Below, in pieces: positions 5,232 to 48,821 of a stretch of DNA of 64,000 bases. The translations under genes were made by a program, and so were the position numbers. The notes under the pieces are model-generated. The model was not told the DNA's origin and did not search any database. It saw nothing but the letters and a program-made list of their open reading frames with translations. How positions within the stretch are numbered: the stretch's first letter is position 1; every line of letters starts with the position of its first letter. The stretch is from an uncultured Desulfobulbus sp. (GTDB lineage Bacteria; Desulfobacterota; Desulfobulbia; Desulfobulbales; Desulfobulbaceae), in the NCBI RefSeq assembly GCF_963665445.1, contig NZ_OY762276.1, forward strand, positions 3,175,501 through 3,239,500. The letters are read 5' to 3'.

Positions 5232-5390
5232 GAATACGTTTATTCATCCTGCAAAGAGCAACGCTGAGGGGTATTGGTATTGCAAATTTCGCCATTCCAC
5301 CCTATTTTCATTTGTTGTCTTCGGATACAGGTACCTATTCTCACATCGACGTCACCGTTTGTACGGTATACAGTTTGTCCTCTCGGACAA
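5232..5390. promoter_or_regulatory. divergent control region with three inverted repeats
   Basis: The 218-base gap between the divergent helical-repeat gene and the efflux operon holds three perfect short dyads: GAATA-4-TATTC (5232-5245), ACCGT-4-ACGGT (5354-5367) and TTGTCC-4-GGACAA (5375-5390). The last two are 7 bases apart and flank a TATACA sequence that could be a -10 box. They could be operators of an efflux repressor, but no regulator gene is adjacent. Each alone could be chance. Confidence 0.35.
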
Positions 5391-5435
5391 TGGACCAATA
5401 GGTTCCCCCCCATTACATCGGAAAAAAAACACCTC

Positions 5436-6776
5436 ATGACATCTTCCAAGCGTACGCCGTGGTTTGTTGCTGTATTTTTCAGCCTGCTTCCCCAGGTCGT
5501 TGGGGCCGCTCCTGCTGACAAGATTCCCTTAACCTGGTCTGTTCAGGCAGCTGTCTCCTATGCCCTGGCCCACAATCCCGATTCCCGCGCCGCACTGCAA
5601 AGAATAATGGCTGCCGAGGCGGATCTCAAGGCCGCCCATTCCGCTTTTTATCCCCAGTTGGGAATAGCGGTGGAATACAGCCGGACCAACAATCCGATGT
5701 ATTCGTTTGGCAACATACTCAATCAGGGCATGTTCACCAACAGTATTGATTTCAACGATCCCGGCACCACCGACTCCCTCCAGGCCAAGGGAATCCTTCA
5801 GTACCGGCTGTACAACGGTGGCCGCGATGTTGCCGCGGTGGATGCGGCGGAAAATCGCGGCCATGCCAGCACCCTGGACAACGAGGCCGTTCGCCTGCAG
5901 CTCGAATACAATGTGGTCCGTGCCTTTTGCAGTATTGTCCAGGCCGGCGAGGTGGTACTGGCCCGCCAATCCGCCCTGGAGGCCATCTCCGCATCCCTGG
6001 CCGTTGCCCGGGCCCGGTTTGAGGAAGGCAGCCTGCTCCAGGAGGAGGTGCTCAACCTGGAAGTGCAGCAGTCGCGTGCCCAGGAGCAGTTGATCCAGGC
6101 CAGGCACAGTCTCAGCCTTGCCCAACGGGGATTCCTCCGCCTGCTCGGTATTCGTGGAGAAAAAGTGCAACTCGATCCCCAGGCCTCACCAATCCAGGAG
6201 ATTCCGGCTGATCCCGATATTGACAAGCGACCGGAGTTGAAGTCCATGGCCGCGCAGATCAAGATGCTTGAGGCCATGGTTCGGCAGGCAAAGGGCGGCT
6301 ATGCTCCAACCGCTGACCTCTTTGGTTCGTACCAGGCGGAAAAGGGTACGGAGCTCGACGATGGATCCGGCACATCCTGGACCACCGGCATTCGCCTCAA
6401 CTACACCCTGTTCAACGGCGGACGTACCGGTGCCGAGGTGGAGCGGGCCGAGGCAAACCTGCGTGAGGCCAGGGAGCAGTTGCACAAGCTGGAACTGGCC
6501 TTTAACCTGGAAAAGGAACAGGCCGTTCTTGCCCTCAATCAGGAGGAGCAGCGGCTCAAGGTCACCCAGAAGATGGTCGCTTCGGCCCGGGAAAGCGCCC
6601 GCCTCTCCCGATTCCGCTTCAAAGAAGGGGTGGTGCTCTCCTCCGAACTGATCGATACCGAAAATCGTCTCACCGATGCCCTGCTCAGCCACAGTCTTGC
6701 AACGGCTTCACGAAAAATTGCCGTTGCCGACCTGCGCCGCGCCGTTGGTCTTCACCAATTCAGCCAAGGAAAGTGA
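5436..6776 (+). CDS. TolC-family outer membrane efflux channel
   Basis: A 446-residue outer membrane factor. It begins with a signal peptide ending near QVVGAAPA and then shows the two-fold repeated alpha-helical barrel pattern of TolC/NodT proteins, with TDSLQAKGILQYRLYNGGRD in the first half and GIRLNYTLFNGGRTGAEV in the second. It would span the outer membrane and periplasm and dock with the adaptor and pump encoded next. The frame is open further upstream, but the leader-like sequence fits a start at 5436. Its stop overlaps the adaptor region, showing a tight operon. Confidence 0.9.
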   Translation: MTSSKRTPWFVAVFFSLLPQVVGAAPADKIPLTWSVQAAVSYALAHNPDSRAALQRIMAAEADLKAAHSAFYPQLGIAVEYSRTNNPMYSFGNILNQGMFTNSIDFNDPGTTDSLQAKGILQYRLYNGGRDVAAVDAAENRGHASTLDNEAVRLQLEYNVVRAFCSIVQAGEVVLARQSALEAISASLAVARARFEEGSLLQEEVLNLEVQQSRAQEQLIQARHSLSLAQRGFLRLLGIRGEKVQLDPQASPIQEIPADPDIDKRPELKSMAAQIKMLEAMVRQAKGGYAPTADLFGSYQAEKGTELDDGSGTSWTTGIRLNYTLFNGGRTGAEVERAEANLREAREQLHKLELAFNLEKEQAVLALNQEEQRLKVTQKMVASARESARLSRFRFKEGVVLSSELIDTENRLTDALLSHSLATASRKIAVADLRRAVGLHQFSQGK

Positions 6777-6778
6777 TC

Positions 6779-7813
6779 ATGGCCAGCCTTCATCTGTTTT
6801 CATTCGCGCCCCTCTCTGTTCTTGCTCTCTGCTGCCTGCTGGCGGGGCCAATTGACGCCGCTGAGCAGCCAAGCGGAACTCAAGCCGAGACTTCCGTCAA
6901 GGTCGCCCAGGCGCAGCTGCAGGAGCTTCCCGCCCTGATCGAGGTGGCCGGCACCCTGCAGGCCAAGGAAAGTGCCGCCATTGCCGCCAAGGTGACCGGG
7001 ATTGTCACCAAGATCCCGGTGATTCTCGGGTCATCGGTGAAGGTCGGCGATCTTCTGGTGGAAATTTCTGCAGGTGAAATTGGGGCCCGGCTCAGCCAGG
7101 CCGAGGCGCAACTGGCTCAGGCACGGCGCAATCTTGAGCGGGAACAGAATCTGCTCAAAAAAAATGCCTCCACCGCGGACACGGTCAAGAGCATGCGCGA
7201 TCAATACAACATAGCCCTTGCCGGCTACAACGAGGCCAAGAGCATGCTCGGCTACACCGCCATCACAGCTCCCTTTGCCGGTGTCGTCACCCGCAAGATG
7301 GTCAACAGTGGTGATCTGGCCACCCCGGGTACGCCCTTGCTCTATCTGGAGAACAACCGGCAACTGCAGGTTCGTTCGGCGGTACCGGAGAGCCTGGTAT
7401 TGCAGATCCATACCGGTGACCGCTTGATGGTCAGGGTGGACGCCGCCCAGGTATTGGTGCAGGGCACGGTGGTTGAAATCGCCCCTGCGGCCGATCCTGC
7501 ATCGCGCACCGCACCGGTGGTGATCGATCTGCCCGACCACCCGGACCTGCGCTCCGGTCAGTTTGCCCGGGTCCAGCTGCCCGGTGCCGGTACCAGGGGG
7601 CTGCTTGTTCCTGCAAGCGCGGTGGTCCCCGTTGGTCAGATGGACCGGGTCTTTGTGATCAAGGAGGGACGCGCCCATCTGCGCCTGGTGCGCACCGGCC
7701 TGAAGCACCAGGGGATGGTGGAAATTCTTTCCGGTCTGAGCGCGGGGGAGACGGTGGCCATCTCCGATAATCGCTTGCTCAAAAACGGCCAGCAGGTACG
7801 GGTTCAGCCATGA
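6779..7813 (+). CDS. RND efflux periplasmic adaptor (membrane fusion protein)
   Basis: A 344-residue HlyD/AcrA-type adaptor linking the inner membrane pump to the TolC-like channel. An N-terminal signal sequence is followed by a lipoyl half-motif ([20 protein letters not shown]), a helical hairpin (about 95-150), the second lipoyl half ([20 protein letters not shown]) and beta-barrel domains. AAGGA lies 8 bases before ATG 6779, better placed than the GTG at 6773. The stop overlaps the pump start by four bases, so translation is probably coupled. Confidence 0.92.
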
Positions 7814-10800
7814 GTGATCAGCAACCACTTCATCCCGGTTTTGCCGGACGGCTGGCAGCGACCTTTGTCGGCTCCAAACTCACCCTGATCGGCCTGGTGG
7901 CCTCGCTGCTGCTGGGATTGTTGGCCCTGGCGCAACTGCCGCGTGAAGAGGAACCCCAGATCAAGGTACCGATGATCGATGTCATGGTGGCCATGCCCGG
8001 TGCCACGCCCAAGGAGGTGGAACAGCGGCTGGCCATCCCCATGGAAAAGCTGCTCTACGAGCTGCCCGGGATCGAATACATCTACTCCACCTCCATGCCC
8101 GGCAGATGCCTGCTGATCGCCCGCTTTTACGTGGGGGAGGATTTTGAAAAATCCATTGTCAGCCTTAACCAGAAGCTGCAGACCAACTTCGACCGTATCC
8201 CCCATGGCGTATCCCAGCCCCTGATCAAGCCGCACACCATCGATGATGTGCCCATCCTCGCGTTGACCCTCCACTCCAAGGTCTATGACCACTCAACCCT
8301 GCGCCGTCTGGCAGCCCAGGTCGACGATGCGGTCAAATCCATCTTCGAGGTGGCCGAGACCAAAGTGATCGGCGGCAACCGCAGGCAGCTGCGGGTCCAG
8401 TTCGATCCGCTTTTGCTCACTGCCCGCAACCTGAGCCCGGCGGATTTGGTACGCCATCTGCAGGAGGCCAATCGCCAATCCTTGTCCGGGACCCTGCGTG
8501 CCGAGAACCATGAGATCCTGCTGCAGACCGGTACCTTTTTGACCTCCGCCAAAGAGGCCGGACGAATCGTCGTCGGGGTGCATGGCGGCAAGCCAGTCTA
8601 TCTTGACGAGGTGGCCACCATCGTCGACGGCCCTGAAGAGCCGCAGTCCTATGTGCTGTTCGGCGCTCGCGAGGGCAACCCCGAGGCCGCGGTGACCCTG
8701 TCGGTGGCCAAGCGCCCGGGCGCCAATGCGGTGCATGTGGTGGAGACCGTACTGCACAAGGTGGAGAGCCTCAAAGGCACCCTGATTCCGCCGGAGATCG
8801 AAGTGAGCATCACCCGCGACTACGGGGAGACCGCTGCGGAAAAATCCAATGAACTGCTCTACCACATGGGGATCGCCGTTTTCGGTGTGGCCCTCCTGAT
8901 CCTGCTCTTTCTCGGCTGGCGCGAGTCGATCATCGTCCTTTTGGCGATCCCCTCGACCCTGTCGCTGACCCTGCTGCTCTTTTATCTCTACGGCTATACC
9001 CTCAACCGCATCACCCTCTTTGCCCTGATCTTCTCCATCGGCATCCTTGTGGACGATGCCATTGTCGTGGTGGAGAACATCGTCCGCCACATGCGTTTGC
9101 CCGAGAACCGGCAGGCCTCGCTCAAGGACATTGCGGTGGCCGCGGTGATTGAGGTCGGCAATCCGACGATCCTCGCCACCTGGGCGGTTATCGCCGCCAT
9201 CCTCCCCATGGCCTTTGTCGGCGGGCTGATGGGCCCCTACATGCGGCCAATCCCCATCGGTGCCTCGGCCGCCATGGTCTTTTCCCTGCTGATCGCCTTT
9301 ACCGTGACCCCCTGGGCCGCCATCCGCATCCTGCGCAAGCCCTCAGGCACGACTGCCAGCCAGAGTCACGACCCGGATCATGCACCGGATGACTGGTTCA
9401 CCCGGCTCTACCACCGAATCATGGATCCCCTGCTTGCCCATGCAGGCTGGCGGCTGATCTTCTTTGCCTCCATCATCGGCATGCTGCTCATCTCCTGTTC
9501 CCTGGTCTACTTCGGCAAGGTCAGGGTGAAGATGCTGCCCTTTGACAACAAGTCCGAATTCCAGATCGTGCTCGATATGCCCGAGGGCTCCCCCCTGGAA
9601 CAGACCACCCGGGTTGCCCTGGAGATGGCCGAGGTGATCGGCAGGGAACCGGAGGTGGTCAACTACCAGGTCTATGCCGGCACCGCCTCGCCTTACAACT
9701 TCAATGGGCTGGTGCGCCATTATTTCCTCCGTTCCGGAGCCACCGTTGCCGATATTCAGGTGAACCTCAAGGCCAAGGGTGAGCGTGACAGCCAGAGCCA
9801 TGCGATCGCCAAGCGGGTGCGCCCGGAAATCGCCGAGATCGCTGCCCGGTACGGCGCCACCGTGGCGGTGGCCGAGGTGCCGCCCGGTCCCCCGGTGCTG
9901 CAGACCCTGGTTGCCGAGATCTACGGGCCTGACGACGTCAGCCGCCTCGCCCTGGCCACCAAGGTGAAGGAGATCTTTTCCTCAACCGATGGAGTGGTGG
10001 ATATCGACTGGTACCGGGAGAGCGAACGGAGCAAACTGGTGCTGACCGTGGATAAGGAGAAGGCGGCTCTCAACGGCCTTTCCGAGGCGGAAATCGCCCA
10101 GGCCATCGACATGGGCCTTTCGGGAAAATCGATCGATCTGTTCCACCAGCCCCGTGACAAGGAGGAGATCGAAGTCCTCCTCCAGCTGCCGCAGGCCCAG
10201 CGGGCCCGAATCGACAACCTGCTCAACATCGCCCTGCGGCCCGCCGCCAATCCGCAGGCGCCGCTCATTCCCCTGCGCGAATTGGTACGGGTGAGTGAGC
10301 AGCCGGTGGAGCAGCCCATCTACCGCAAAAATCTCAAACCGGTGCTCTATGTGACCGGGGATGTGGCCGGTGCCGCAGAAAGCCCGGTCTATCCGATCCT
10401 GGAGATGAACAAAAAGCTCCAGGCCCTCAGTGGTGACCAGTTCGGCGGTCTGGCTGGCCCGATCACTATCTACAACCTCAACCAGCCCTTTCTCGAGCAG
10501 CAGCCGTCGATGAAGTGGGACGGTGAGTGGCATATCACCCTGGAGGTCTTCCGCGATCTCGGACTGGCCTTCTGCGTGGTCATGGTGCTGATCTACATGC
10601 TCATGGTCGGCTGGTTCAAGGACTACATCATCCCCCTGGTGGTGATGGCGGCGATTCCCTTCTCGCTGATCGGCATCCTCCCGGCCCACTGGGGGTTAGG
10701 CGCCTTTTTCACCGCCACCTCGATGATCGGCTTCATGGCCGGAGCGGGTATCGTGGTGCGCAACTCGATCATTCTGGTCGACTTTATCGAGCTGCGCCTC

Positions 10801-11034
10801 AGCCACGGTCTGCCGCTGGCCGAGGCTGTGGTCGAGGCCGGTGCGATCCGCTTTCGTCCCATGCTGCTCACCGCGCTGGCAGTGGTGGTGGGCGCCTCGG
10901 TCATCCTGGCCGACCCGATCTTCCAGGGGCTGGCCATCTCGCTCATGTTCGGCGAGATCGCCTCGCTTTTGATCAGCCGCATGGCCGTGCCGGTGCTCTA
11001 CTTCATGGTGCAGCAACGAAAACAGGGTGCCTGA
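7810..11034 (+). CDS. RND-family efflux permease
   Basis: A 1074-residue inner membrane proton/substrate antiporter of the AcrB/HAE1-type superfamily. An N-terminal transmembrane helix (about 22-42) is followed by a large periplasmic loop, helices 2-6 (about 350-510) with the fourth-helix acidic motif [17 protein letters not shown], a second periplasmic loop, and helices 8-12 (about 920-1065). The length is normal. The substrate (drug, solvent or metal) cannot be assigned. Members with this divergent [16 protein letters not shown] start are usually called acriflavin-resistance-like. It is the last gene of the three-gene operon. Confidence 0.93.
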
Positions 11035-12724: not shown

Positions 12725-13885
12725 CTAGAACGCCTCCTCAAAAATCGCTTCGATATCTGCCAACTCCAGCCGGCGTGGATTGGTGACCATACAGGGATCG
12801 GCCAGTGCCTTACGCGATAACAGGGGAATATCCTCCAGCTGCACCCCGCGCTTACTCAGGCCGGATATAAAACCGAGTTGTTCCTTAAAGCGCTGAATGG
12901 CATCGAAAATAGCCTGGCAACGATCCTCCTGGGGCAGCTCAGCCACCGCCACATTAAAGATCTCGCCGATCCGGTCGTATCGTTCGGCAGCGGCCTCATA
13001 GTTATATCGCATGACCACATCCAACAGCAGGGTGTTGCATTCACCGTGGGGCAGGTCGAGCAGGCCCCCCAGACTGTGGGCCAAGGCATGAACAGCGCCT
13101 AGGCTGGCATTGGAAAAGGCCAACCCCGCCTCCAGGCTCGCCAACATCATCTGTTCCCGTAGGTCAATATCATCCAGCTTCTCAACAACCAGGGGCAGAT
13201 ATTGATGAATCAGACGAATGGCTTCCAGGGCATGAATATCGGTCAACGGGGAGTTGGCAGAACTGACATAGGCCTCAACCGCATGGACCAGGGCATCCAT
13301 GCCGGTACACAAGGTCAGGTGACGATCCATGGTCAGGGTCAGGCCTGGGTCGAGCAAGGCCAAATCCGGGACCACGGTTTTGCTGATGATGGCGATCTTG
13401 ACCTTGTCGGTGGTGTTGTTGATGATGGCAAACTGGGAGACGTCGGCCGAGGAGCCGGAGGTGGTGGGCACACAGATCAGCGGTGGCCCAGGAATTTCAA
13501 CGTTATCAACCCCTTGAAATTCCAAGATATGTTTGTTGTTGGCAGAGACGATGGATACTCCTTTAGCGCAATCCATCGGACTGCCGCCGCCCAGAGCAAT
13601 GATGATGTCACACTTGGCTTGCCGGTAGAGCTCGGCCGCCTCCATCACCTCGCTTTCCCGGGGATTGGGACTGACCCGATCGTAGACAACGGACTGAACG
13701 CCAGAGTCGGAAAGAATCGTTTGCGCCCGCTCGAGAATCCCGGCGGCGACGATGCCCTGATCGGTCACGATAAAAACCCGCCCGGCACCGAAGTTCAGGG
13801 CGAACCGCCCCAGGAGCTCAATGGCGCCGTCTCCGAAAATGATTTCCGGAGCAAGAAATTTCCGTATGTTCAACTCAGTCAACAT
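12725..13885 (-). CDS. iron-containing alcohol dehydrogenase
   Basis: A 386-residue group III NAD(P)-dependent alcohol dehydrogenase, cytoplasmic, interconverting an alcohol and an aldehyde or ketone. The nucleotide motif GGGSPMDCAKG is near residue 98. The metal ligands are visible in DALVHAVEAYVSS (Asp and His, near 195) and in HALAHSLGGLLDLPHGECN (two His, near 265-280). A strong G-rich ribosome binding site precedes the start. The substrate is not deducible; ethanol, butanol or a lactaldehyde-type compound is possible. The hybrid kinase follows at once. Confidence 0.93.
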   Translation of the reverse strand: MLTELNIRKFLAPEIIFGDGAIELLGRFALNFGAGRVFIVTDQGIVAAGILERAQTILSDSGVQSVVYDRVSPNPRESEVMEAAELYRQAKCDIIIALGGGSPMDCAKGVSIVSANNKHILEFQGVDNVEIPGPPLICVPTTSGSSADVSQFAIINNTTDKVKIAIISKTVVPDLALLDPGLTLTMDRHLTLCTGMDALVHAVEAYVSSANSPLTDIHALEAIRLIHQYLPLVVEKLDDIDLREQMMLASLEAGLAFSNASLGAVHALAHSLGGLLDLPHGECNTLLLDVVMRYNYEAAAERYDRIGEIFNVAVAELPQEDRCQAIFDAIQRFKEQLGFISGLSKRGVQLEDIPLLSRKALADPCMVTNPRRLELADIEAIFEEAF

Positions 13886-14209: not shown

Positions 14210-14668
14210 TTACCTCCGCGAATTTTGCGCAACATCCGTCGGAGAAAACGGGATTCCGAAACGATCCTGGCCCAGGAGATGAATACTGTCGCGGCCAAAG
14301 AGTTCGAGAAAGCTGGAATCTGCCAGCGTACAGCGGAACCCTCGGCAGGTGCGGGGACGATAGTGGTAAATTGCGCATTGATACCTGCCATTCACCTTGC
14401 GTAGAAAGACGCAGCCCTTGTCATCGGGATGGATCATGTACACCTTGCCTGCCGTCAGGGCTTCCGCCTCCAGTTGCTGCATGGATTTATGGCGAAGCTG
14501 CGCCAGGGTAATGTCGATACCGACATGACCGCCCATCTTGCGGATAAAATCCACCTCATCGGGCTGAAGAGGGATCCTCCGGTACGATTTACAGCAGGTC
14601 CCGCATTGGCGGCACTCGGCGAAGATGGTCTTCAGGGTTGTTTCATCAGGGATAACGTTTTTGCTCAT
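14210..14668 (-). CDS. YkgJ-family cysteine cluster protein
   Basis: A 152-residue protein of the YkgJ/Fe-S-oxidoreductase-like cysteine cluster family, thought to bind zinc or an iron-sulphur cluster. The cysteines are in CRQCGTCCKSYRRIPL (about 20-35), KGCVFL, YQCAIYHYRPRTCRGFRC (about 105-122). There is no signal peptide or membrane segment. It starts 38 bases after the HDAC-like gene and is probably the last gene of the chemoreceptor-GNAT-HDAC transcript. The biochemical activity of this family is not established. A second, longer member lies at 44691-45455. Confidence 0.82.
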   Translation of the reverse strand: MSKNVIPDETTLKTIFAECRQCGTCCKSYRRIPLQPDEVDFIRKMGGHVGIDITLAQLRHKSMQQLEAEALTAGKVYMIHPDDKGCVFLRKVNGRYQCAIYHYRPRTCRGFRCTLADSSFLELFGRDSIHLLGQDRFGIPFSPTDVAQNSRR

Positions 14669-14706: not shown

Positions 14707-15738
14707 TCACAGCGTCCAAAAGGCGTGCAGTGGATGCTGCTCGAGTATCTTGGCCCCGCGATCGGAGTGGCTGACTCCTGGACGTTTCCCGGGGGGCAGG
14801 AGCAGGCTGTCCACCGTGGCCAGCACCGATGATTCAAGGCTGAGAGGATTGTATCCGCCTTCAAGAATAAAGAGCAGGCGATCATTGCAGGCTTCATGCG
14901 CTAGAAACTTCAACAACTCCGTCACCACCCCGTACCACTGCGTGGTTAGGAGAATGCGGCTGATGGTGTCGTCCTTATGCGCGTCATACCCGGCAGAAAC
15001 CAGGATGATCTGTGGCAAATACTGTTCAACCACGCTCCCGAGAACCCTGCTGAGCAGATAGAGGTACTCCTGGTCGGCAAACTGCTGATGAACCGGCAGG
15101 TTGATGGTATACCCCCGCCCCCTGTCCGCCCCTATCTCCTGCGCCAGCCCGGTAAAGGGAAAGAGTTTTTCCTGATGGATCGAGCAGAACAGGACCTGTT
15201 CGCTTTCATAAAAAACAGCCTGGGTACCGTTGCCGTGATGGACGTCGAAATCGATGATCAGAATCCGCTGCAGGCCATAAACCCGCCGCAGATACTGGGC
15301 CGTGATCGCCACATTGTTGAACAGGCAAAATCCCATGCCCCGTCCAGGTTCGGCATGATGCCCCGGAGGCCTGACAAGGGCAAATCCGTAATCAATGGTA
15401 CCGCTGAGAATCTGGTCGGCGAGTTCGAGGCAGCCTCCGGCGGCCAGAGCTGCCGTATAGAGACTCTGCTCCATGAGATAGGTGTCCCGATCATAGGAGT
15501 ACGGATCATGGAGATTCACATGCTCGCGCAGTTGCTCCAGGTAAAAGCTTGAATGCACCGCCTCGATGTCGGTTGTTGACGCCTCACGGGGACGGAAGAT
15601 GGAAAAGCGATCCCGGTAGCGTTCCGATTCCAGCCTCTGGTAGAGGCCCCGGACGCGGGCGGCATTCTCCAACGAGTTCAAAGGGATGCCATGATCGAAA
15701 TATCTTCGATCAAAGAGGATTCCCCGTGCCTTATGCAT
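14707..15738 (-). CDS. histone deacetylase-family hydrolase
   Basis: A 343-residue zinc amidohydrolase of the HDAC/acetoin-utilisation/acetylpolyamine amidohydrolase superfamily. The catalytic histidine pair is in RPPGHHAEPGRG (about 134), the zinc ligands in IDFDVHHGNGTQ (about 170) and in AGYDAHKDD (about 257), and the late LEGGYN motif (about 300) carries the transition-state tyrosine. All look intact. It would remove acetyl or other acyl groups from lysine, polyamines or small amides. The start at 15738 overlaps the GNAT stop by 8 bases; 15762 is an alternative start. Confidence 0.9.
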   Translation of the reverse strand: MHKARGILFDRRYFDHGIPLNSLENAARVRGLYQRLESERYRDRFSIFRPREASTTDIEAVHSSFYLEQLREHVNLHDPYSYDRDTYLMEQSLYTAALAAGGCLELADQILSGTIDYGFALVRPPGHHAEPGRGMGFCLFNNVAITAQYLRRVYGLQRILIIDFDVHHGNGTQAVFYESEQVLFCSIHQEKLFPFTGLAQEIGADRGRGYTINLPVHQQFADQEYLYLLSRVLGSVVEQYLPQIILVSAGYDAHKDDTISRILLTTQWYGVVTELLKFLAHEACNDRLLFILEGGYNPLSLESSVLATVDSLLLPPGKRPGVSHSDRGAKILEQHPLHAFWTL

Positions 15739-16294
15739 AGTGATACTGGTAGATGGGTTCATTGATGAAGCGCTGCCATTCCAGACGATACAGATATCCC
15801 TGCCGCTGTACCTGCTGATCGGTATACGGCAGGGCCTGAATGAGCTCGAAGCCAAGTTTTTGCAGACAGCGCTGTTGGGCCTGATTGTTGATATCGGTAT
15901 ACATCTCGACCCGGCGAATGTTGAGCCGATCAAAAAGAAACAAAATCAGGTACTTTTGCGCCTCGGTGCCGTATCCCTTTCCGCGCAGCTCCGGATTGGC
16001 GAGCTTAAGGGCCATCACCGCCGTATTGGGATCTTCGGGACGCATCCAATACTGAATGGTGCCCAACGGGGTCCCATCCCGAAGTTCCATGAGAAAACTC
16101 TTGTTTCGTTTGCTCCAGAGCATTCCTGATTTGATCTGTGCCTCAAGGGTCTCCACCGTGTGGTGCTCCGGGGTCAGATAGGAACCATAGGCAAGCGGAT
16201 CCTTGCTCCACAGGGCCAGAAGCGGCGCATCGAAGACCTCGATGCGCCGCAGCAACAGACGGATGGTGAAGATCTTGTTGCCGAAGATGGTCAT
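15731..16294 (-). CDS. GNAT-family N-acetyltransferase
   Basis: A 187-residue RimJ/RimL-like acetyltransferase (GNAT_3 type). It opens with TIRLLLRRIEVFDAPLL, and the acetyl-CoA binding motif A is ELRGKGYGTEAQKYL (about 108-122). The family signature IRRVEMYTDINNQAQQRCLQ follows, with LGFELIQ after it. It would transfer an acetyl group to a protein N-terminus, lysine or small amine, and the target is unknown. The gene overlaps the HDAC-like deacetylase and follows the chemoreceptor after 63 bases. Confidence 0.88.
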   Translation of the reverse strand: MTIFGNKIFTIRLLLRRIEVFDAPLLALWSKDPLAYGSYLTPEHHTVETLEAQIKSGMLWSKRNKSFLMELRDGTPLGTIQYWMRPEDPNTAVMALKLANPELRGKGYGTEAQKYLILFLFDRLNIRRVEMYTDINNQAQQRCLQKLGFELIQALPYTDQQVQRQGYLYRLEWQRFINEPIYQYHYA

Positions 16295-16357: not shown

Positions 16358-19300
16358 TTACTTGGTCATGTTGTTCACCGCGTTCTGCAGTGAACTGCTC
16401 GAAGCCATGAGCCGATCAAGTGCGTTGACCGTATCGACGACCGACTCCTGAACCGTTTCGGTGGTGCGACGGTTATCACCGGCCGATTTGACCACGGTCT
16501 GGATCTGCTCCATAACCTTCTGCCCGTGATCCGCCAAGGTGGCTGCCCGTCCGCTGACATCGTCGATGGAGGAGGAAATGGTCATGATCCCGGTGGAGAT
16601 CTCCTCCATGGCATTGAGCGCGGTGTTGATGACCTTGGAACCGTCATCCAGCATGCGCATGCCGTCCTGCATGGCGGTGATGGTCTGGCGGGAGTCATTC
16701 TCCACCATCTTGACGATATTGGAAATATCCACCGCCGAACGCGAACTGTTTTCCGCCAGCTTGCGCACCTCGTCGGCCACCACTGCAAATCCACGGCCGG
16801 CATCTCCGGCACGGGCGGCCTCGATGGCGGCGTTAAACGCCAGGAGGTTGGTCTGGGAGGCGATCTCCTTGATGATATCGACAAAACCGCCGATTTTTTC
16901 CACCTGGGAGACCAGGGTGGCCACCATCTCATTGTTCTGCTGCATGGAGCGGTTGATCTGCTGCATCTTCTCGCCCGCCTCCGCACCGGCCTTGCGACCG
17001 TTTTCCGCCTCATGCGACATGGAACCGGCCAACTGGTTCACCTTTTCGCTGACCCCGAGCATTTCGCTGGAGGAATCCAGCATCCGGCGAATGGTGGTTT
17101 CCGAGGCATCCAGACGCACGACCTCCTGATCGATCGACTGGTTCATGACCTGCATCTCCTGCTTGACCTGTTCCATCCGCTGCTGGGAATCCGCCACCAG
17201 GGCCGCCACCTCGCCGCTGGCCTGGCTCACCAGCTGCTCGACCTCGGATTCGGCGCTGACATCAAGGACAAACTCCAGGGCCCCCTTGATATTGCCCTTG
17301 GCATCCTTGATCGGCGCACCGGTGTATTTGATTGGAACCTCGCGTCCGTTGATATGGGCAACCGTCTTGGCGGAGATAACCTGATCCGTCTGCATGGCCT
17401 GATTGCAGGCACAGTGTTCGGTCCGGCAATGGCCGCTGTTGAACAGGCTGTAACACTTCCTGCCGATCAATTCGTCCGCGGGCGAACCCAGGGCCTGAGC
17501 CCCTGCCGGGTTGATGAAGGTGATCGAAAAATCGGTATCAATGGAGAAGATCGGCGTGGGAATGGCATTGAGATTCTCAATCTTCTCATTGGCCTCCTGG
17601 CGCTGGCGTGCCTCATCGGTGATATCGAGCACAAATTCGAGTGCGCCGGTGATATTGCCCTTGGCATCCTTGATCGGCGCGCCGGTGTACTTGATCGGCA
17701 TGATCATCCCGTCACGCGGCCGGGCAATGGTCTCATCGCTGACCACGCTGTCGGTTTTCATCGCCCTGTTGCAGGCACATTTCTCGGTCTGGCAGTGCGG
17801 CGTCTTGAACAGGTCAAAGCACTTGCGGCCGATGGCACTGTCCGGCGTCAATCCGACGGCAGCCGCACCGGCAGGATTGATGAAGGTGATGGCGTAATCG
17901 GTGTCGATCGACATGATCGGCGTGGGAATGGCGTTGAGGTTCTCGATCTTGGTGTTGGCATCGTGCCGCTGACGGGCCTCTTCGGTGATATCGAGGATAA
18001 ACTCGAGCGCCCCCTTGATGTTGCCCTTGGCATCCTTGATCGGTGCGCCGGTGTACTTAATGGGCACGATCACCCCTTCGCGCGGCCGGGCGATGGTTTC
18101 CTCGGTCACGATGCCGTCGCTCTTCATGGCCTGGGTGCAGGCGCAGCGCTCGGTCCGGCAATGGGGGGTGCGGAAGAAATCGTAACATTTCTTGCCCACC
18201 ATCTGATCAGGGCTCAGGCCAACCACCGCCGCACCGGCAGGGTTCATATAGGTGATGGTGAAATCGGTGTCGATCGACATGATCGGCGTGGGGATGGCAT
18301 TGAGATTCTCGATCTTCTCGTTGGCCATCTGCTGTTGCTTGCTCTCCTCGGTGACATCGAGAATGTACTCAAGCGCCCCCTTGATGTTGCCCTTGGCATC
18401 CTTGATCGGTGCGCCGGTATACTTGATCGGAACGATCACCCCGTCGCGCGGCCGGGCAATGGTCTGCTCGCTGATAACGCTGTCGGTCTGCATCGCCCTC
18501 AGGCAGGCGCATTTCTCGGTCTTGCAGTGCGGCGTCTTAAACAGATCAAAACACTTCTTGCCCACAGCCTCATCCGGCGTCAACCCGGCAACCGCCGCAC
18601 CGGCCGGGTTCACGAAGGTGATGGTGAAATCGGTGTCGATCGACATGATCGGCGTGGGAATGGTATTGAGGTTCTCGATCTTTTCCTCGGCCAGTTGCTG
18701 CTGCCTGGTTTCATCGGTGACATCGAGGACATACTCAATGGCTCCAACAATGTTGCCCTTGGCGTCCTTGATCGGCGCGCCGGTATACTTGATCGGAACG
18801 ATCACCCCGTCGCGCGGCCGGGCAATGGTCTGCTCGCTGATGACGCTATCGGTCTTCATCGCCCGCATGCAGGCGCATTTTTCGGTCTTGCAGTGCGGCG
18901 TCTTGAACAGGTCAAAACACTTCTTACCCACTGCCTCATCCGGCGTCAATCCCGCCACTGCCGCACCTGCTGGATTGATGAAGGTCACGGTGAATTTATC
19001 GTCGATCTCCATAATCGGCGTGGGAATCACGTTGAGATCGGTCTCCATCTGCCGCAGCCGCGCCTCCAGCTTCTTTTCACGGCTGATATCGCTCATGGTC
19101 ACCAGGGTCCGGGCTTCTTCCCCTCCAAGGGGACGGGCTATGGAACGAAAGTAGCGGATACCTCCGCCATTGTTCTGGATCCCTTCGGTGCTGACCTCTT
19201 TGCTCAGCCTGGACGCCTTTTCCACCGTGCAGTCCTTGGTGCCGCAGAGATGGAGATTGCAGGTTTCCTCACAGGTCATCTTGCCGATTACCTGGGCTGC

Positions 19301-19438
19301 TGTCAGCTGAAAGGTGTCGTAAAATGCCTGGTTGGCCCAGGTGATCGTCCGCTTGCCGTCCACCATGAACCCTGGCTCGTTCCAGGACTCGAGAATCCCC
19401 ACATCCATACCGACAGGTGTTTGTGCTGCTGTTGCCAT
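16358..19438 (-). CDS. soluble chemoreceptor with six PAS domains and Cys motifs
   Basis: A 1026-residue methyl-accepting chemotaxis protein without any transmembrane segment. PAS domain 1 (about 10-130) has Cys56, 60, 65 and 70. Five further PAS units (135-744) repeat every 122 residues, each with the cysteine pattern C-x8-C-x4-C-x-C (first copy Cys174, 183, 188, 190). A coiled-coil signalling domain (about 745-1026) carries the conserved hairpin tip [20 protein letters not shown] (from about 863). No C-terminal CheR/CheB-binding pentapeptide is present. GGAGG lies 5 bases before ATG 19438. The cysteines could bind a metal, cluster or haem, or respond to redox state. It is cotranscribed with the triple CheW gene. 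Confidence 0.95.
17207..19036 (-). repeat. five in-frame 366-bp PAS repeats
   Basis: The IPTPI codons of the five repeats begin at exactly 366-base intervals; the plus-strand landmark TCGGCGTGG is at 17551, 17917, 18283, 18649 and 19015. Long stretches such as [17 protein letters not shown] are identical in all five copies, showing expansion by unequal recombination or recent conversion. The copies differ in a few residues around the cysteine motif and are most diverged in the fifth. Confidence 0.93.
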
Positions 19439-21059: not shown

Positions 21060-21461
21060 TTACAAGGTTTGAGGGCTCACATATTTCGGACGCATGCTGC
21101 GCGCCGCCAGGCGGTTGAGCACCGCTTCGATTTCGCTGAAATCGCTGTCCTGGTAAGCAATAAAGCGAGGCCGCAACTGATGTGCGGAGGCCACGGTTTC
21201 GACCTCGGCATTAGGCAGGATGAGAATGAAAAACACCTGCTCCAAACGAAAACGAAAAGGAGACAGACACTGCAGGTCGTTTGTGCAGGTGGCCTGAAGC
21301 ACCACGGCCTCCGGCAAGGGATCCGGAGTCTGGAAATGACGCAACAACTCTCCCATGTTCCAGCAGTCGGTCAGAGACTCCAGGTTGGGCAACGCCTTGA
21401 TGGAATCCTTGAGCCGTTCCCCGCTCTCTGTATGTTTCGCTGTAAACAACAGCACGTTCAT
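21060..21461 (-). CDS. pseudo-receiver-like small protein
   Basis: A 133-residue protein I do not recognise as a named family. Its strand-helix order (MNVLLFTAKH, EAVVLQATC, FFILILPNAEV, RPRFIAYQD) looks like a response-regulator receiver fold, but the acidic pair, the phosphoacceptor aspartate (Gln or Ala there) and the switch lysine are absent. If it is a receiver it cannot be phosphorylated in the usual way and would act by binding. GGAG lies 8 bases before ATG 21461. It is the first gene after the sigma-54 promoter and precedes the triple CheW gene by 47 bases. Confidence 0.6.
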   Translation of the reverse strand: MNVLLFTAKHTESGERLKDSIKALPNLESLTDCWNMGELLRHFQTPDPLPEAVVLQATCTNDLQCLSPFRFRLEQVFFILILPNAEVETVASAHQLRPRFIAYQDSDFSEIEAVLNRLAARSMRPKYVSPQTL

Positions 21462-21515
21462 AGTATTTTCTCCGCTTGTTCTCACAGATCCCGAACTGTT
21501 CACGTTCTCATCCAA

Positions 21516-21755: not shown

Positions 21756-23138
21756 TCAGGCGTCGGCGTACTTTTTGATGAGTTGATACAGACGGGTGCG
21801 GGAGAGTCCGGAAAGACGTCCGGCCTCCATGACGTTGCCCTCGCTGTGGCGCAGGAGGCGTTGGGTATAGTCGCGTTCAAAGGCATCCTTGGCATCCCGC
21901 CAGGCGGGAAGAAAGGTCCTCTCAGCAAAAGGCGGCGAAGCGACAGGCGCCTGCCGTTGGACATTGGCCCGGGCATGGGCCGTACGAATATGGACCGGCA
22001 GATGTTGGGTGAATAGAACCGGGGAATACACGGCCTGGGCAAAGGCGGATTCTATGGCCTGGGAGAGTTCGCGCACATTGCCCGGCCAGTGATAGCTGCA
22101 GAGCAACTCCATCACCTCGGGCAAACATTCCTTGGGTTCCTGGCCGTAGCGCTGGACCGAACAGTTGAGGAAATGTTCGGCCAACAGGGGAATATCTCCG
22201 TCACGTTCGCGCAAGGGCGGCAGGTGAAGGCTCAGGCCTCGAAGCCGGTACAACAGGTCCTCACGAAACAGGCCGTCTCTGGTCATGGCGGCCAGATCTC
22301 GGTTGGTGGCACAGATGAGACGAAAATCCGAACAACATTCCTCCTGACTGCCCACGGGGCAAAAGGCCCGTTCCTGGAGGACGCGAAGAAAACTTTTCTG
22401 GGTGGCCAGAGGTAACTCGCCGATTTCGTCGAGAAACAGCGTGCCCTTGTCGGCGTGACGAATAAGACCGCGATTGGCCCGGTCCGCGCCGGTAAAGGCG
22501 CCTTTGACGTGGCCAAAGAGTACCGATTCGACCAGCTGCTCGGGCAAGGCCGTACAGTCGACCACCACGAAGTTCCCCTTTTTCCGCCTGCTGTTGGCAT
22601 GGATCGCGCGAGCGAAGGCCTCCTTGCCCGTTCCGGACTCACCGGAAATGACTACGCTGGCATCGGCGGCAGCGGCATTGGCGAGGATCTCCAGACATCG
22701 GATGAAACGGGGACTTTCCCCCACCAGCTGGTCACGCTCCATCGCCTCGACCACCGCTTTCTGGCCACGCACCGCCTGACGGTACTGCAGCGCCCTGGCC
22801 AGGGGGAGCGCAAGTTCCTTGATGATGGAATTCTTCTCCAGATAGCACCAGGCACCATGACGGATGGCCATTTCCGCGCCATCCGGATCGCCCTGAGCGG
22901 TGATGATGATCACCTGGGGCTCAGAAGGGACTGCACGAAGCTGATCGATACTTTTCAAGCCGTTGCCATCGGGCAGGTAGACATCAAGGAGAATAATGTC
23001 AAAATCACCGTTCACCGCAGTCCGCACCCCTTGAGCCAGGGAATGGACCGCCTGCGATTGATGATGCAGGCTTTCGAGTTTGTCGGCCACTGTTTCTACC
23101 AACAGGGCGTCATCATCGATGATGAGAATCTTCGCCAT
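21756..23138 (-). CDS. NtrC-family sigma-54-dependent response regulator
   Basis: A 460-residue transcription activator. The receiver domain (1-120) has an acidic pair at 8-10, phosphoacceptor Asp52, Thr80 and Lys102. The AAA+ domain (about 138-370) has Walker A GESGTGKE (166-173), the sigma-54 contact loop GAFTGA (213-218), Walker B TLFLDEIGE and an arginine-rich sensor region. A Fis-type helix-turn-helix is at 436-457 (MEAGRLSGLSRTRLYQLIKK). All key residues are present. It has its own sigma-70 promoter and sits next to a -24/-12 promoter and a dyad, so it probably activates the pseudo-receiver/CheW/chemoreceptor transcript. The cognate kinase is unknown. Confidence 0.94.
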   Translation of the reverse strand: MAKILIIDDDALLVETVADKLESLHHQSQAVHSLAQGVRTAVNGDFDIILLDVYLPDGNGLKSIDQLRAVPSEPQVIIITAQGDPDGAEMAIRHGAWCYLEKNSIIKELALPLARALQYRQAVRGQKAVVEAMERDQLVGESPRFIRCLEILANAAAADASVVISGESGTGKEAFARAIHANSRRKKGNFVVVDCTALPEQLVESVLFGHVKGAFTGADRANRGLIRHADKGTLFLDEIGELPLATQKSFLRVLQERAFCPVGSQEECCSDFRLICATNRDLAAMTRDGLFREDLLYRLRGLSLHLPPLRERDGDIPLLAEHFLNCSVQRYGQEPKECLPEVMELLCSYHWPGNVRELSQAIESAFAQAVYSPVLFTQHLPVHIRTAHARANVQRQAPVASPPFAERTFLPAWRDAKDAFERDYTQRLLRHSEGNVMEAGRLSGLSRTRLYQLIKKYADA

Positions 23139-23295: not shown

Positions 23296-23324
23296 ATTAC
23301 ATAGTGTGTTCCAATAGTTGTCAA
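23296..23324 (-). promoter_or_regulatory. sigma-70 promoter of the sigma-54 activator gene
   Basis: The minus strand has TTGACA, a 17-base spacer and TGTAAT (five of six). The -35 box overlaps the stop codon of the upstream gene. The leader to the activator ATG is about 150 bases long and contains a small CGGCC-4-GGCCG hairpin (23231-23244). Confidence 0.75.
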
Positions 23325-23959
23325 GGAAACAAAAGACGACCGATGGTCGTAAGCAGCAATCTGCGGTCGATGGGTTTGCAGAGCAGTGCCTTGACAGGGC
23401 AATGGCGGATCTCCTGTGTAGTTATGCCGTTTCCATACCCGGTCATGAGGACCACAGGCAGTTCCGGCCGCAGCTGGTGCAGCCGCTGGCACAGTTCCAC
23501 CCCATTGCAGCGTGGCATATCAAAATCGGTCAGCACCAGATCATAGGCATCGCTTTTCGCCAGGAGATGTTCCATGGCCGTAACACTGTCGGTCAGCACC
23601 TCCACATCCAGTCCATGTTTGCTCAGATAGCGGCGGAGAATCTCCAGCACATCCGGCTCATCGTCCACAATGAGAATCCGCCCCTGCAGCGGACCTGTTG
23701 GTTCCTGCTGCTCTTGCTTCGGAAGTGCGCGCAAAAGGTTGTTCGGCAGGGTCGCTTTCCGGCCGCGGATTTTTTCCACCAGTTCCTCGCCACGGCGGCA
23801 GGCCGCCACCATCCGTTGCAGACGGCGGTGCACCTGCTCTCCTTCAGGCCCGTCCTCGGCAATCATCTCCGCGTTGGCAATGATAATGCTGAAAATATTT
23901 GTAAAGGCATGTCCATCCTCGCTACTCAGACAACTTGCGGCGGTCGGCTCTTGGCTCAT
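23321..23959 (-). CDS. orphan DHp-receiver protein without ATPase domain
   Basis: A 212-residue protein. Residues 13-75 align by eye with the histidine-kinase dimerisation helices (GHAFTNIFSIIIANAEM against the AHDFNNLL-type box), with the histidine at position 17. No ATP-binding domain follows. A complete receiver takes up about 92-210 (VDDEPD, acceptor Asp in LTDFDMPRCNG, MTGYG, LCKPID). The residue after the histidine is Ala rather than Asp/Glu, and Asn is kept at +4, a pattern linked to loss of kinase but not phosphatase activity. The start at 23959 is preferred; the frame is open to 24061. Confidence 0.75.
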   Translation of the reverse strand: MSQEPTAASCLSSEDGHAFTNIFSIIIANAEMIAEDGPEGEQVHRRLQRMVAACRRGEELVEKIRGRKATLPNNLLRALPKQEQQEPTGPLQGRILIVDDEPDVLEILRRYLSKHGLDVEVLTDSVTAMEHLLAKSDAYDLVLTDFDMPRCNGVELCQRLHQLRPELPVVLMTGYGNGITTQEIRHCPVKALLCKPIDRRLLLTTIGRLLFP

Positions 23960-24217
23960 CGATGTACTCTTGGGGTAGAAGATAGTCTTGAATTTCCCTG
24001 ACAGCAGCAAACAGGGTTCCGGGATAAACCGCCCTCTGTCACCGTAACTGCCGGTTACCATGGACAGAGGAAAGCTGTGCGATCACCAGGTCATTTTAGC
24101 ATGCATTTAAGGGGGGCTGCCGGATTTCACCCTTTTTTTCCCCGGAAGCATCGCTGGCACCACCTCCAGGGGAAACAAGCGACACCTACGGGACGAGATT
24201 TGTCCGCAGGAACCCTT

Positions 24218-24494: not shown

Positions 24495-25934
24495 GTGACA
24501 ATCGATAACATCAATGTAGAAGAGACAATCCAGCGGGTTACCAGCTTGATAGCCGCTGAGCAGGATCTTTCACCGGCGCTGAAAAGCAGCCTGGAAGTTC
24601 TGTTGCTCTTGGTTTCATTGTTGTTGAATCGCCTTGGTCTCAATAGCAAAAACAGTAGCAAGCCGCCGTCGACCGATCCTTTCCGCACTAAAAAACCTCG
24701 TTCTGCGAGTGGTCGCAAACCCGGCGGTCAGCCTGGTCATGCTGGAACGACACTGAGACCTGTCAGTGATCCCGATATCATCAAGGAGATTGTTATCGAT
24801 CGCAGCCTGCTTCCCCCTGGGCGCTATCGCAGCAGCGGCCACGAGGCACGCCAGGTCATTGACCTGGACATCACCACCCTGGTGACCGAATGGCGTGCCG
24901 AGATCGTGGTGGATGAACAGGGCAGACGTCATGTCGCACCGTTTCCGGAAGGGATCACCAGGCCGGTACAGTATGGCATCGGCGTGAAGGTCAATGCTGT
25001 GTATATGTCGCAGTTCCAGATGGTGCCATATAATCGGATCGAGGACCACTTCCTGGAGCAGATGGGTATTCCGGTCAGTAGCGGTTCCATTGTCAATTTC
25101 AACCGTGACGCCTTTGATCGTCTGGCCTTCTTCGAGCAGTGGGTGCAAAAGGCGTTGCAACAAGAGGACTTGCTTCATGTCGACGAGACAGGGATCAACA
25201 TCGGTGGCAAACGATGCTGGCTGCATAATGTTTCCAGTCTTGGGTTAAGCCATTTCGCTCCCCATGCAAAACGGGGCGGTGAGGCAATAGAGTCCATCGG
25301 TATCCTCCCAGGTTTCCACGGGATACTCTGCCACGATCATTGGAAACCCTATTTCCATTACGGCCGGGTTCATGCCTTGTGCAATGCGCACCATTTGCGT
25401 GAACTGGAACGGGCCTGGGAGCAAGATGGTCAACAATGGGCCCAGCAGCTCAGCCTGCTGCTCAAGGAGGCCAATGAGATGGTCCATGGCGCTGGCGGAT
25501 GTCTCGATTCCGCCACGGCAGAGCAGTACAGGGTGCGATATCGAGAACTCTTGCAACAAGCCGAACTGGAATGCCCGGCACCGGCCCCTAAGCTCAACAA
25601 CGGAAAACGGGGACGAATAGCCAAATCGAAATCCAGAAACCTGCTGGAGCGATTACAGAGCTTTGAAAACGACGTTCTTCGGTTCTTGGACGATCCGCTG
25701 GTGCCTTTCACCAATAACCAGGCAGAAAATGACCTGCGGATGATCAAGGTGCAGCAGAAGGTGTCAGGGTGCTTCCGTTCAATGGAAGGTGCAGAGACTT
25801 TCTGCCGTATCCGTAGCTACATCACGACCTGTAGAAAACAAGGCATTACTGCGTCCAAAGCACTGCGCTTACTCTTCCAGGGCAGATGGCCCGATTTTAT
25901 GAGTACGCTTGTGGTTTCGGTTTGCGCTGAATAG
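24495..25934 (+). CDS. IS66-family transposase
   Basis: A 479-residue DDE transposase. It begins with a leucine-rich helix, then the basic SKNSSKPPSTDP segment (about 55-66) typical of IS66 TnpC. The catalytic residues are visible as Asp in LLHVDETGIN, Asp in LCHDHWKPYF and Glu in NNQAENDLRMIKVQQK, followed by the C-terminal IRSYITTCRKQG region. It starts with GTG after a G-rich site and appears undamaged, so the element may be active. Confidence 0.95.
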   Translation: MTIDNINVEETIQRVTSLIAAEQDLSPALKSSLEVLLLLVSLLLNRLGLNSKNSSKPPSTDPFRTKKPRSASGRKPGGQPGHAGTTLRPVSDPDIIKEIVIDRSLLPPGRYRSSGHEARQVIDLDITTLVTEWRAEIVVDEQGRRHVAPFPEGITRPVQYGIGVKVNAVYMSQFQMVPYNRIEDHFLEQMGIPVSSGSIVNFNRDAFDRLAFFEQWVQKALQQEDLLHVDETGINIGGKRCWLHNVSSLGLSHFAPHAKRGGEAIESIGILPGFHGILCHDHWKPYFHYGRVHALCNAHHLRELERAWEQDGQQWAQQLSLLLKEANEMVHGAGGCLDSATAEQYRVRYRELLQQAELECPAPAPKLNNGKRGRIAKSKSRNLLERLQSFENDVLRFLDDPLVPFTNNQAENDLRMIKVQQKVSGCFRSMEGAETFCRIRSYITTCRKQGITASKALRLLFQGRWPDFMSTLVVSVCAE

Positions 25935-46072: not shown

Positions 46073-47113
46073 TTACTCTTCCAGTTTTTCTTCTCGTTTA
46101 TCGGGAGCTACCCAACCGTCGTATTTCATGCCCAAGGTGAGATTATGTTCGGAAAGAAGTGCTTTAATCTCATTGAGTGATTTGCGACCAAAGTTCTTGG
46201 TCTTCAGCATCTCAGCGTCCGTCTTGTTGACAAGCTGGCCGATGTACTGAATCTGGGCATTTTTGAGGCAATTTGCCGATCGCACGGAAAGTTCGAGGTC
46301 TTCGACATTTTTATCGAGGAACGGTGGATAGGCTTTACCGTCGTCATCCTCATCCGAACTTTCGGGGGCCTTGGCGATCTCCTCATTAAAGTTAATGAAG
46401 ATGGTCATCTGCTCCTTCAAGATCTTGGCGGCATAGGCGAGTGCGTTTTGTGGCTCGACACTGCCGTCCGTCTCGATTTCCATGGTCAACCGGTCATAGT
46501 CTGTTTGCTGCCCTACGCGAGCCTGGCTGACGACATACTGGACGCACACTATGGGCGAGAAGGAGGCATCAACCGGAATCACCCCAATCGGCTGCCCCTC
46601 TTTCTTGTTGTGCTCGGCTGTCACGTAGCCCTTTCCCCAATGCACTTCCAATTCTGCGCGGAAGGTCATATCACTGGTCAGGGTACAAATGAGGAGGTCA
46701 GGGTTCATGACCTCTACGTAACCGCCGCCATTGATATCACCGGCAACAACCTTTCCAGGCCCCTGCTTCTCGATCAAGACGGTCCGTGATTCGGGGCCGT
46801 TGAGTTTGAGCCGCACCTGCTTGAGGTTGAGAATAATTTCGGCGACATCTTCGTGGACACCATCAACGGTGGTGAACTCGTGGAGGGCGTCGTTTAAACG
46901 AACACTGGTTATCGCCGCACCACGAATCGAGCTCAACATAATTCGCCGCAGCGAGTTGCCGATGGTTGTTGCAAAACCACGCTCGAGGGGCTGACAGACG
47001 AATTTCCCGTAGTGCCTCGAGAGCGATCCTTCGTCGACTTCGAGTTTTTCCGGGGAAATTAGGCTATGCCAGTTTTTGTAAAAGGGATTGTCGTCCCGGA
47101 TTTCTTGTGCCAT
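46073..47113 (-). CDS. rpoA: RNA polymerase alpha subunit
   Basis: A 346-residue subunit that nucleates RNA polymerase assembly. The N-terminal domain (about 20-235) has [19 protein letters not shown]. An acidic linker SSDEDDDGK is followed by the C-terminal domain (about 265-330), which binds UP elements and activators ([27 protein letters not shown]). It is slightly longer than the E. coli protein because of the linker and tail. Confidence 0.98.
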
Positions 47114-47133
47114 GCAATACCTAACGATTAAAG

Positions 47134-47763
47134 TTACTTGGAATACAACTCAACAATAAGTTGTTCCTGAATTGGCATCGTTATTTCTTCGCGATTTGGC
47201 AACGCTTTGACTACACATTGGAATTTCGCCTGATCAAGCTCGAGCCAACTCGGCAGCCCTCGGCGGACAGCACCCTCGAGATTGTCGATGATCACCTCGT
47301 TCTTCTGGTGTTTCTCCTTCAGGCTAATAACGTCTCCGGCCTTGACCTGGTACGAGGGAATATTGACCTTTTTCCCGTTTACCAAGAACAGATCGTGGCG
47401 GACCATCTGACGGGCCTGATCACGGGAACTTGCGAAGCCGCAACGGTAAAGAGCGTTGTCGAAACGACGCTCAAGCATGATCAGCAAAATCTCACCGGTT
47501 ACACCTTTAGCCCGGTCAGCTCTCTCGAAATACCGACGGAATTGTGCCTCAAGCATGCCGTACATCTGCTTAACTTTTTGTTTTTCGCGCAACTGAACGG
47601 CATAATCCGAAACCTTGCGGAATTTGTTCTGTCCATGTTGCCCGGGAGCAAAGGAACGACGTTCAAAGGCGCACTTGTCCGAATAGCAACGGTCACCTTT
47701 GAGAAACATCTTGAGATTTTCACGTCTGCACAGCCTGCAGGATGCGCCTGTATATCTAGCCAA
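47134..47763 (-). CDS. rpsD: 30S ribosomal protein S4 (zinc-binding form)
   Basis: A 209-residue primary 16S rRNA binding protein. It carries the N-terminal four-cysteine zinc site [20 protein letters not shown] with a further DKC (about 9-31), and an S4 RNA-binding domain around [20 protein letters not shown] (about 98-117). S4 is a usual translational repressor of the alpha operon in other bacteria. It is followed by rpoA after 20 bases. Confidence 0.97.
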
Positions 47764-47828
47764 CTTTTACCTCCAAATAGTATCCGATATGATCTCTGAC
47801 TGGGGAACGGATAGACGAATGTTGAGCG

Positions 47829-48227: not shown

Positions 48228-48271
48228 AACGACTCCCAATTACTCTTCAGTCAGAACAGTGCGTGTGATAG

Positions 48272-48640: not shown

Positions 48641-48687
48641 ATCCGTGCTCCTCTTATCAGAATCTTGCTAGATTATTAACGACGGAA

Positions 48688-48801: not shown

Positions 48802-48821
48802 GTTTCACCCCAAATAATTTA

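Follow-up and report, generated by a model that had tools for sequence, protein, structure and literature searches.

Within the 64,000-nucleotide stretch of Desulfobulbus DNA analysed here (the window), the gene of a soluble methyl-accepting chemotaxis protein (MCP) lies in a cluster of genes on one strand. The order is receiver protein, NtrC-type regulator, a protein of 151 residues, triple CheW, array MCP, GNAT acetyltransferase, HDAC-type deacetylase, PF03692 protein and iron-containing alcohol dehydrogenase, with a PAS hybrid kinase after the dehydrogenase end. Handles beginning with L and G denote loci and genomes.

23321..24061, minus strand: protein of 246 residues with a C-terminal receiver domain (PF00072); homologues lie upstream in several loci
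21756..23138, minus strand: NtrC-type response regulator with receiver and sigma-54 AAA+ domains and a weak Fis helix-turn-helix match (Pfam)
21060..21515, minus strand: cluster protein of 151 residues, with homologues in L026, L027, L028, L032, L070 and L071
19453..21033, minus strand: protein of three fused CheW domains (three stretches of PF01584), directly upstream of the MCP
16358..19438, minus strand: soluble MCP of 1026 residues with six Cys-bearing PAS domains (open reading frame, Pfam and hydropathy)
19064..19438, minus strand: first, diverged PAS domain of the MCP (residues 1-125), Cys 56, 60, 65 and 70, core C56-x8-C65-x4-C70
18692..19063, minus strand: array unit 1, C174-x8-C183-x4-C188-x-C190
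18326..18697, minus strand: array unit 2, motif C296-C312
17960..18331, minus strand: array unit 3, motif C418-C434
17594..17965, minus strand: array unit 4, motif C540-C556
17228..17599, minus strand: array unit 5, the most diverged, with a one-residue deletion, motif C662-C678
16496..17032, minus strand: MCP signalling domain, residues 803-981, without Cys (PF00015, E 2.3e-37)
15731..16294, minus strand: GNAT acetyltransferase (PF13302)
14707..15738, minus strand: HDAC-type deacetylase (PF00850, E 6.5e-94)
14210..14668, minus strand: CxxCxxCC protein, a putative zinc or iron chelator (PF03692)
12725..13885, minus strand: iron-containing alcohol dehydrogenase, next in the same-strand run, with homologues in L026, L062, L070 and L092
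11102..12721, minus strand: PAS hybrid histidine kinase adjoining the run (PAS, HisKA, HATPase_c and Response_reg)

An IS66-type transposase gene (24495-25934) adjoins the upstream end of the cluster. Elsewhere in the window are an RND efflux operon with OEP, membrane-fusion and AcrB-type genes (5274-11034) and an ordinary region (46073-63913, ten frames scanned) with ribosomal protein, SecY, RpoA and EF-G genes.

The reading frame of the array MCP begins with an ATG at 19438. Its signalling domain scores 128.9 bits against the Pfam cut-off of 34.6, the Pfam scan found no HAMP domain in the protein, and the highest 19-residue Kyte-Doolittle mean is 1.26; the protein therefore has no membrane anchor and is soluble, as the earlier note had proposed. 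Its input region gives six PF00989 and five PF08448 stretches. All 24 cysteines lie in this PAS region and none in the signalling region, at residues 56, 60, 65 and 70, then at 174, 183, 188 and 190, the latter pattern returning at +122, +244, +366 and +488, so the claim of 24 regularly placed cysteines in an unanchored protein stands. The pattern C-x8-C-x4-C-x-C has five exact matches, each 122 residues from the next, and Tandem Repeats Finder reports a period of 366 (4.2 copies, 79% matches, score 1730), in agreement with the exact 366-bp repeat described before. The description of the five PAS repeats as near-identical is correct for their spacing but not for their sequence, since units 1-4 share only 63-77% of their residues and 69-81% of their nucleotides. 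A gapped alignment gives 67% identity between unit 5 and unit 2; ungapped identities for unit 5 are too low because of its one-residue deletion. The first PAS domain had been credited with another cysteine spacing, which is true of its fourth cysteine, C60, but C56-x8-C65-x4-C70 is the same three-Cys core as in the array. The conserved unit is therefore three cysteines, present in six copies in the window protein.

Conservation of this core was assessed in relatives drawn from named genomes by Cys-free peptide patterns (PIKDAKGN plus a linker pattern), which gave at least 80 matches at no fewer than 76 distinct loci. The 69 loci compared comprise 67 close relatives among the matches listed (L026-L092), the window and L016; nine distant PAS proteins (L093-L101) were left out of the counts. 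In several cases two loci belong to a single assembly (such as L032/L062 and L027/L092), so the genomes are fewer than the loci. The nearest named relatives among the matches listed are Desulfobulbus rhabdoformis (L026, 90% on a unit) and D. elongatus (L070, 82%). With cut units and units containing N left aside, 246 of 259 complete units, from 67 loci, matched the unit profile at better than 1e-30 and were taken as array units, with a mild bias in that the profile was built from Cys-bearing units.

Among the matches listed, C-x8-C-x4-C is present in 246 of 246 array units, and in 12 of the 13 complete units outside the array class. Other columns are likewise 100% conserved across the 246 units (for example P14, D21, N30, G46, A68, T94, D100, G103, G107 and E110), so the Cys invariance is due in part to constraint on the unit as a whole. 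The fourth cysteine is found in 184 of these listed units and replaced by V, I, L, T or A in the other 62. The set C-x8-C-x4-C-x-C is complete in all five window units, as first described, but the strict four-cysteine site drawn from it does not hold among relatives; as to loss of cysteines in orthologues, three of the four are kept in every one of the 246 units counted. A His precedes C2, the second cysteine of the core, in 223 of the 246, and each of the 23 units without it is the last available unit of its array (among the matches listed). The first PAS domain carries the core in 48 of 50 listed frames, window included, that have at least 90 residues preceding the array (exceptions L072 and L080), and it is absent from four frames (L083, L085, L086 and L089).

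Three of these frames among the matches listed, L083, L085 and L086, also have no fourth Cys in any unit and no PF03692 gene, a pattern that could perhaps reflect one lineage; the cut array L089 likewise has neither a first PAS nor a fourth Cys. A link between the fourth Cys and the PF03692 gene is a lead only, with counter-cases on both sides: L036 and L038 have no such gene, yet three units of each carry the fourth Cys, while in the cut arrays L079 and L090 the gene is present but none of the complete units has this Cys.

Such a pattern of ligands can be read in more than one way. Cys3His is a common zinc site, and a structural zinc might stiffen the E-F region of each domain while the PAS pocket binds a small organic ligand as the signal; every copy of such a structural site is expected to retain all four of its ligands. 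Some array units are without the fourth Cys and some without the His, and we regard this explanation as unlikely, even though a review lists the WalK PAS domain with a Zn ligand in a table (PMC8534201). The variable fourth ligand and the His loss in 23 last units also count against the metal or Fe-S reading favoured below. In relatives of Desulfobulbus, the three invariant thiols, with a His nearby in most units, might instead serve a metal-free switch, in which disulfides or persulfides of C1, C2 and C3 would alter PAS packing in an oxidising or sulfide-rich cytoplasm. According to the accessible part of PMC6456745, the kinase AccS of Azoarcus needs Cys for quinone-linked redox sensing, a precedent weakened in that these Cys may lie outside a PAS domain of the array type. 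Three invariant residues with a frequent His, moreover, are no less suited to a metal site than to a single disulfide, and the thiol switch appears to us a real but minor possibility.

The place of the cysteines in the PAS fold bears on the same question. In a sequence alignment (E 1e-4), C1 falls on the adduct Cys of the LOV domain 6rhg (PDB), which would put it near the PAS ligand pocket and make a sensing role plausible. By the usual PAS layout, C2, C3 and C4 presumably lie in the E-F loop and helix F. LOV domains have the consensus GxNCRFLQ around the adduct Cys of helix E. A LOV photoreceptor was considered and rejected: the position of the Cys is common to both, but its context is GKKCFDLF here and GRNCRFLQ in 6rhg. 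That difference also weakens the broader idea of a flavin or haem PAS domain in which the cysteines are incidental, despite the LOV adduct position of C1 and the FAD, FMN or haem often held by PAS folds, as stated in the accessible part of PMC10468136. Since the Cys core is kept in all array units among the matches listed, and the array MCP has no CXXCH (0 matches), we hold this idea to be very improbable. In its covalent c-type form, haem, which the earlier note had included among its candidates, was rejected on the same absence. Nor does the protein qualify as a CZB zinc chemoreceptor, the Pfam scan showing no CZB match at E 0.001.

The core is not confined to the array. In the genome of the window, C-x8-C-x3-C occupies the same PAS position in the sigma-54 regulators L002, L108 and L109 (L109 by eye), and it recurs in two Cys-PAS sigma-54 activators of another genome, G034 (L020 and L024). 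L024 carries four tandem Cys-PAS units before the activator and is a second Cys-PAS array, with another output. C-x8-C-x4-C, whether or not the fourth Cys follows, is carried in other genomes of the order by the 4HB-HAMP-PAS MCPs L119 and L123, by the GAF histidine kinases L120, which has HAMP, and L129, and by the PAS-STAS protein L136. It is also present in the MCPs L147, L148, L149 and L151 of the family set around a Halochromatium metagenome-assembled genome (MAG), and in two units of L155, whose frame ends in an MCP-like region and which belongs to the phylum set of a Myxococcota MAG. A search for the cysteine pattern in PAS-MCP proteins, which the earlier note had put forward as a check, finds the three-Cys core in L119, L123, L147, L148, L149 and L151. 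As the core, or its C-x8-C-x3-C form, recurs with MCP, histidine kinase, sigma-54 AAA+ and STAS outputs, it marks a wider PAS subtype, and the array in the window is an extreme case of this widespread Cys-PAS subtype. Association with four kinds of output domain is as expected of a sensor module.

The array itself has a narrower distribution. In the order, 71 of 257 genomes match at E 1e-30 or better and 42 reach 1e-45, which we took as the threshold for the array itself; in a draw from the phylum, 9 of 395 genomes reach 1e-45, the window's own counted in. Of the 116 genomes in the set around the Halochromatium MAG, four match at 1e-25, with array strength only in that MAG; three of 188 match in the set around the Myxococcota MAG, which is itself at array strength, and G854 stands at 2.3e-46. 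The Halochromatium and Myxococcota MAG contigs may reflect transfer or mis-binning.

The gene cluster is conserved together with the receptor. Neighbours were counted by tblastn (E 1e-6) in loci with enough flank among the matches listed, window excluded. The gene directly upstream of the array MCP is a triple-CheW homologue in each of the 48 testable loci, the GNAT and HDAC genes lie downstream in 42 of 43 each (L080 is without both), and the PF03692 gene is present in 34 of 39 (missing in L036, L038, L083, L085 and L086). A homologue of the NtrC-type regulator lies upstream of the array in a number of loci; the HTH_8 match of the regulator in the window, at 19.8 bits, is under its cut-off of 22. 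The 151-residue protein has no Pfam or NCBIfam match at E 0.001. At the place of the hybrid kinase, G001 has a frame of 546 residues that is PAS-like as judged by eye. The HDAC frame opens at 15933, its likely Met being at 15738, with an 8-base overlap with the GNAT gene. Relatives of the HDAC protein in the PDB are bacterial HDAC-like amidohydrolases and HDAC6 (E 1e-50 to 1e-57 per domain); those of the GNAT protein are weak, the best being an aminoglycoside 6'-N-acetyltransferase at E 1.4e-5, and carry no information on its substrate. Scans of the cluster gave 4 sigma-54 promoter hits against 5.77 expected, no excess over chance, and nothing firm for sigma-70 promoters (11 promoter-like sites, 6.9 expected) or terminators (13 terminator-like sites, 11.0 expected).

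No CheA gene was found in the cluster, and no CheR or CheB domain among the genes scanned around the locus. The window's genome has two PF02895 (CheA) matches, at 1.70 and 1.84 Mb, with the cluster at 3.19 Mb; coupling of the receptor to either of these genes, about 1.5 and 1.35 Mb away, is assumed. All 42 array-bearing genomes of the order have a CheA match, compared with 203 of 257 overall (199 above the family cut-off), a co-occurrence with a hypergeometric probability of 1.8e-5, uncorrected for kinship. The presence of a CheA match in every array-bearing genome supports a chemosensory role.

The earlier note had taken the array to be recently expanded or in the course of homogenisation. 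Repeat number does vary between relatives: of the matches listed, 35 reading frames are complete, and 2, 7, 19, 5 and 2 of these have 3, 4, 5, 6 and 7 units, respectively. Among the matches listed, the closest relative of an array unit is in another genome in 188 of 246 cases and in the same protein in 58. All five window units have their closest relative in another genome, at the same array index in four of them; for unit 4 this relative is in the cut array L062, where the index is inferred. Window units are about 81-94% identical to congener units, which is above the identity among the window units, and recent expansion of this array is thereby contradicted. The six-unit array of L018 (933-1670, G010) does contain a recent duplication, its units 2 and 3 being 94.6% identical in nucleotides.

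Homogenisation fares better, in part. At sites with the same residue, the window units have a codon identity of 0.64, compared with 0.49 in a shuffled null (maximum 0.592 of 500). Between species, it is 0.53-0.55 for like-placed units (0.58 for L016 versus L026) and 0.50-0.56 for the MCP region. The values expected from codon usage alone are 0.51 for the window gene and 0.43-0.44 between species, which leaves an excess of 0.13 within the window and of 0.10-0.15 between species (0.10-0.11 for the like-placed units at 0.53-0.55), nearly the same. Other arrays vary, their corresponding pairs of values being 0.49 and 0.43 (L016), 0.47 and 0.44 (L026), 0.54 and 0.44 (L048), 0.58 and 0.45 (L037) and 0.70 and 0.55 (L018, recent duplicate included). 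That the excess is nearly equal within and between species, although the window units differ more in protein, is consistent with some DNA exchange, for which these sequence comparisons provide modest evidence; with codon usage taken into account, they do not bear out strong homogenisation. Nei-Gojobori dS is 1.25-1.93 between like units of the window and L016 and 0.47-1.04 among window units 1-4, and dN runs opposite to dS in the same comparison; the dS values are near saturation and uncorrected for codon usage, and we give them no weight.

Taken as a whole, the array MCP probably senses the redox state of the cell or a metal. The explanation that we favour, with somewhat better than even confidence, is a cytoplasmic metal or Fe-S receptor for redox state or oxidants, with one three-thiolate site per PAS domain and output through CheW and CheA. 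In this mechanism the input would be a rod of six PAS domains, in each of which alignment places C1 where helix E begins, C2 in the E-F loop, mostly beside a His, and C3 at helix F; a fourth Cys, where present, follows C3 by two residues. The site would most likely hold a metal or Fe-S cofactor and respond to cytoplasmic redox state or to oxidants such as O2, NO or reactive sulfur, and the changes would travel via the PAS linkers to the MCP hairpin. From there the triple CheW may act as a dedicated adaptor that relays the signal to a CheA encoded at another place in the genome and on to the flagellar motor; the NtrC-type regulator of the cluster is perhaps a further target. With the unit repeated, each receptor would have several sites, which would raise the signal or grade the response. 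Within this reading, an Fe-S cluster appears the likelier occupant, with zinc or mononuclear iron a substantial second option. Fe-S is our first choice by analogy, because three fixed Cys, together with a fourth ligand that varies and a His in most units, are reminiscent of cluster sensors whose ligands are mixed, of which IscR is one, and because a PAS domain with a [4Fe-4S] cluster is known in NreB. A more elaborate proposal would make the cluster a self-contained redox chemosensory branch, in which an Fe-S (Cys3 or Cys3His) PAS rod is wired through the triple CheW while the acetyltransferase and HDAC adapt or gate it by reversible acetylation of receptor, CheW or CheY; as a whole we consider this distinctly unlikely.

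No description of the Cys motif or the cluster was found in the literature searched, whose coverage is mostly outside subscription journals, nor in the accessible parts of PMC10468136, PMC13104023, PMC6456745, PMC8534201, PMC7666581, PMC12871147 and PMC3460858. The earlier note had not noticed that the six PAS domains all share the three-Cys core, nor had it mentioned the His close by, the breadth of the family or the conservation of the cluster. The conserved cluster points to a chemosensory branch undescribed in that literature. If the three-Cys PAS domain binds a cluster or a metal, a cofactor could be assigned to a PAS subtype of chemoreceptors, kinases and sigma-54 regulators. The link between receptor, fused triple CheW and an acetyltransferase/deacetylase pair is conserved across families, and across phyla if some metagenome bins are right, and acetylation in chemotaxis becomes testable in a culturable genus.

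The nearest likenesses to the array MCP are found within the Cys-PAS family. L119 and L123 (4HB, HAMP, PAS and MCPsignal), L147 and others have the same C-x8-C-x4-C-x-C PAS domain feeding an MCP output, as in this example from L123: CYDHFKTSDCKTDRCAC. These membrane MCPs differ in having a periplasmic four-helix bundle, HAMP and one or two Cys-PAS domains in place of a 122-residue array. The Cys-PAS sigma-54 activators (L002, L108 and L109; L020 and L024) likewise have tandem or single PAS domains with the same Cys position, but their C2-C3 spacing is one residue shorter, their output is AAA+ and those read have no His before C2. Among characterised sensors, NreB has the motif C-x2-C-x11-C-x2-C. 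The window protein has no CxxC and its Cys steps are 9, 5 and 2 in the units and 4, 5 and 5 in the first PAS domain, so that membership of the NreB type was rejected. The accessible parts of PMC10468136 and PMC8534201 describe NreB of Staphylococcus as holding a [4Fe-4S] cluster in a PAS domain for O2 sensing. TlpD, in the part of PMC12871147 available, is also a soluble chemoreceptor with a metal-binding sensor domain, but this is a Zn-binding CZB domain and not a PAS array. GSU0582 and GSU0935 of Geobacter, as presented in the accessible part of PMC3460858, resemble the array MCP in joining a cofactor-bearing PAS fold to an MCP; they are periplasmic and carry c-type haem, whereas the array MCP has no CXXCH and bears its candidate sites in a soluble PAS array.
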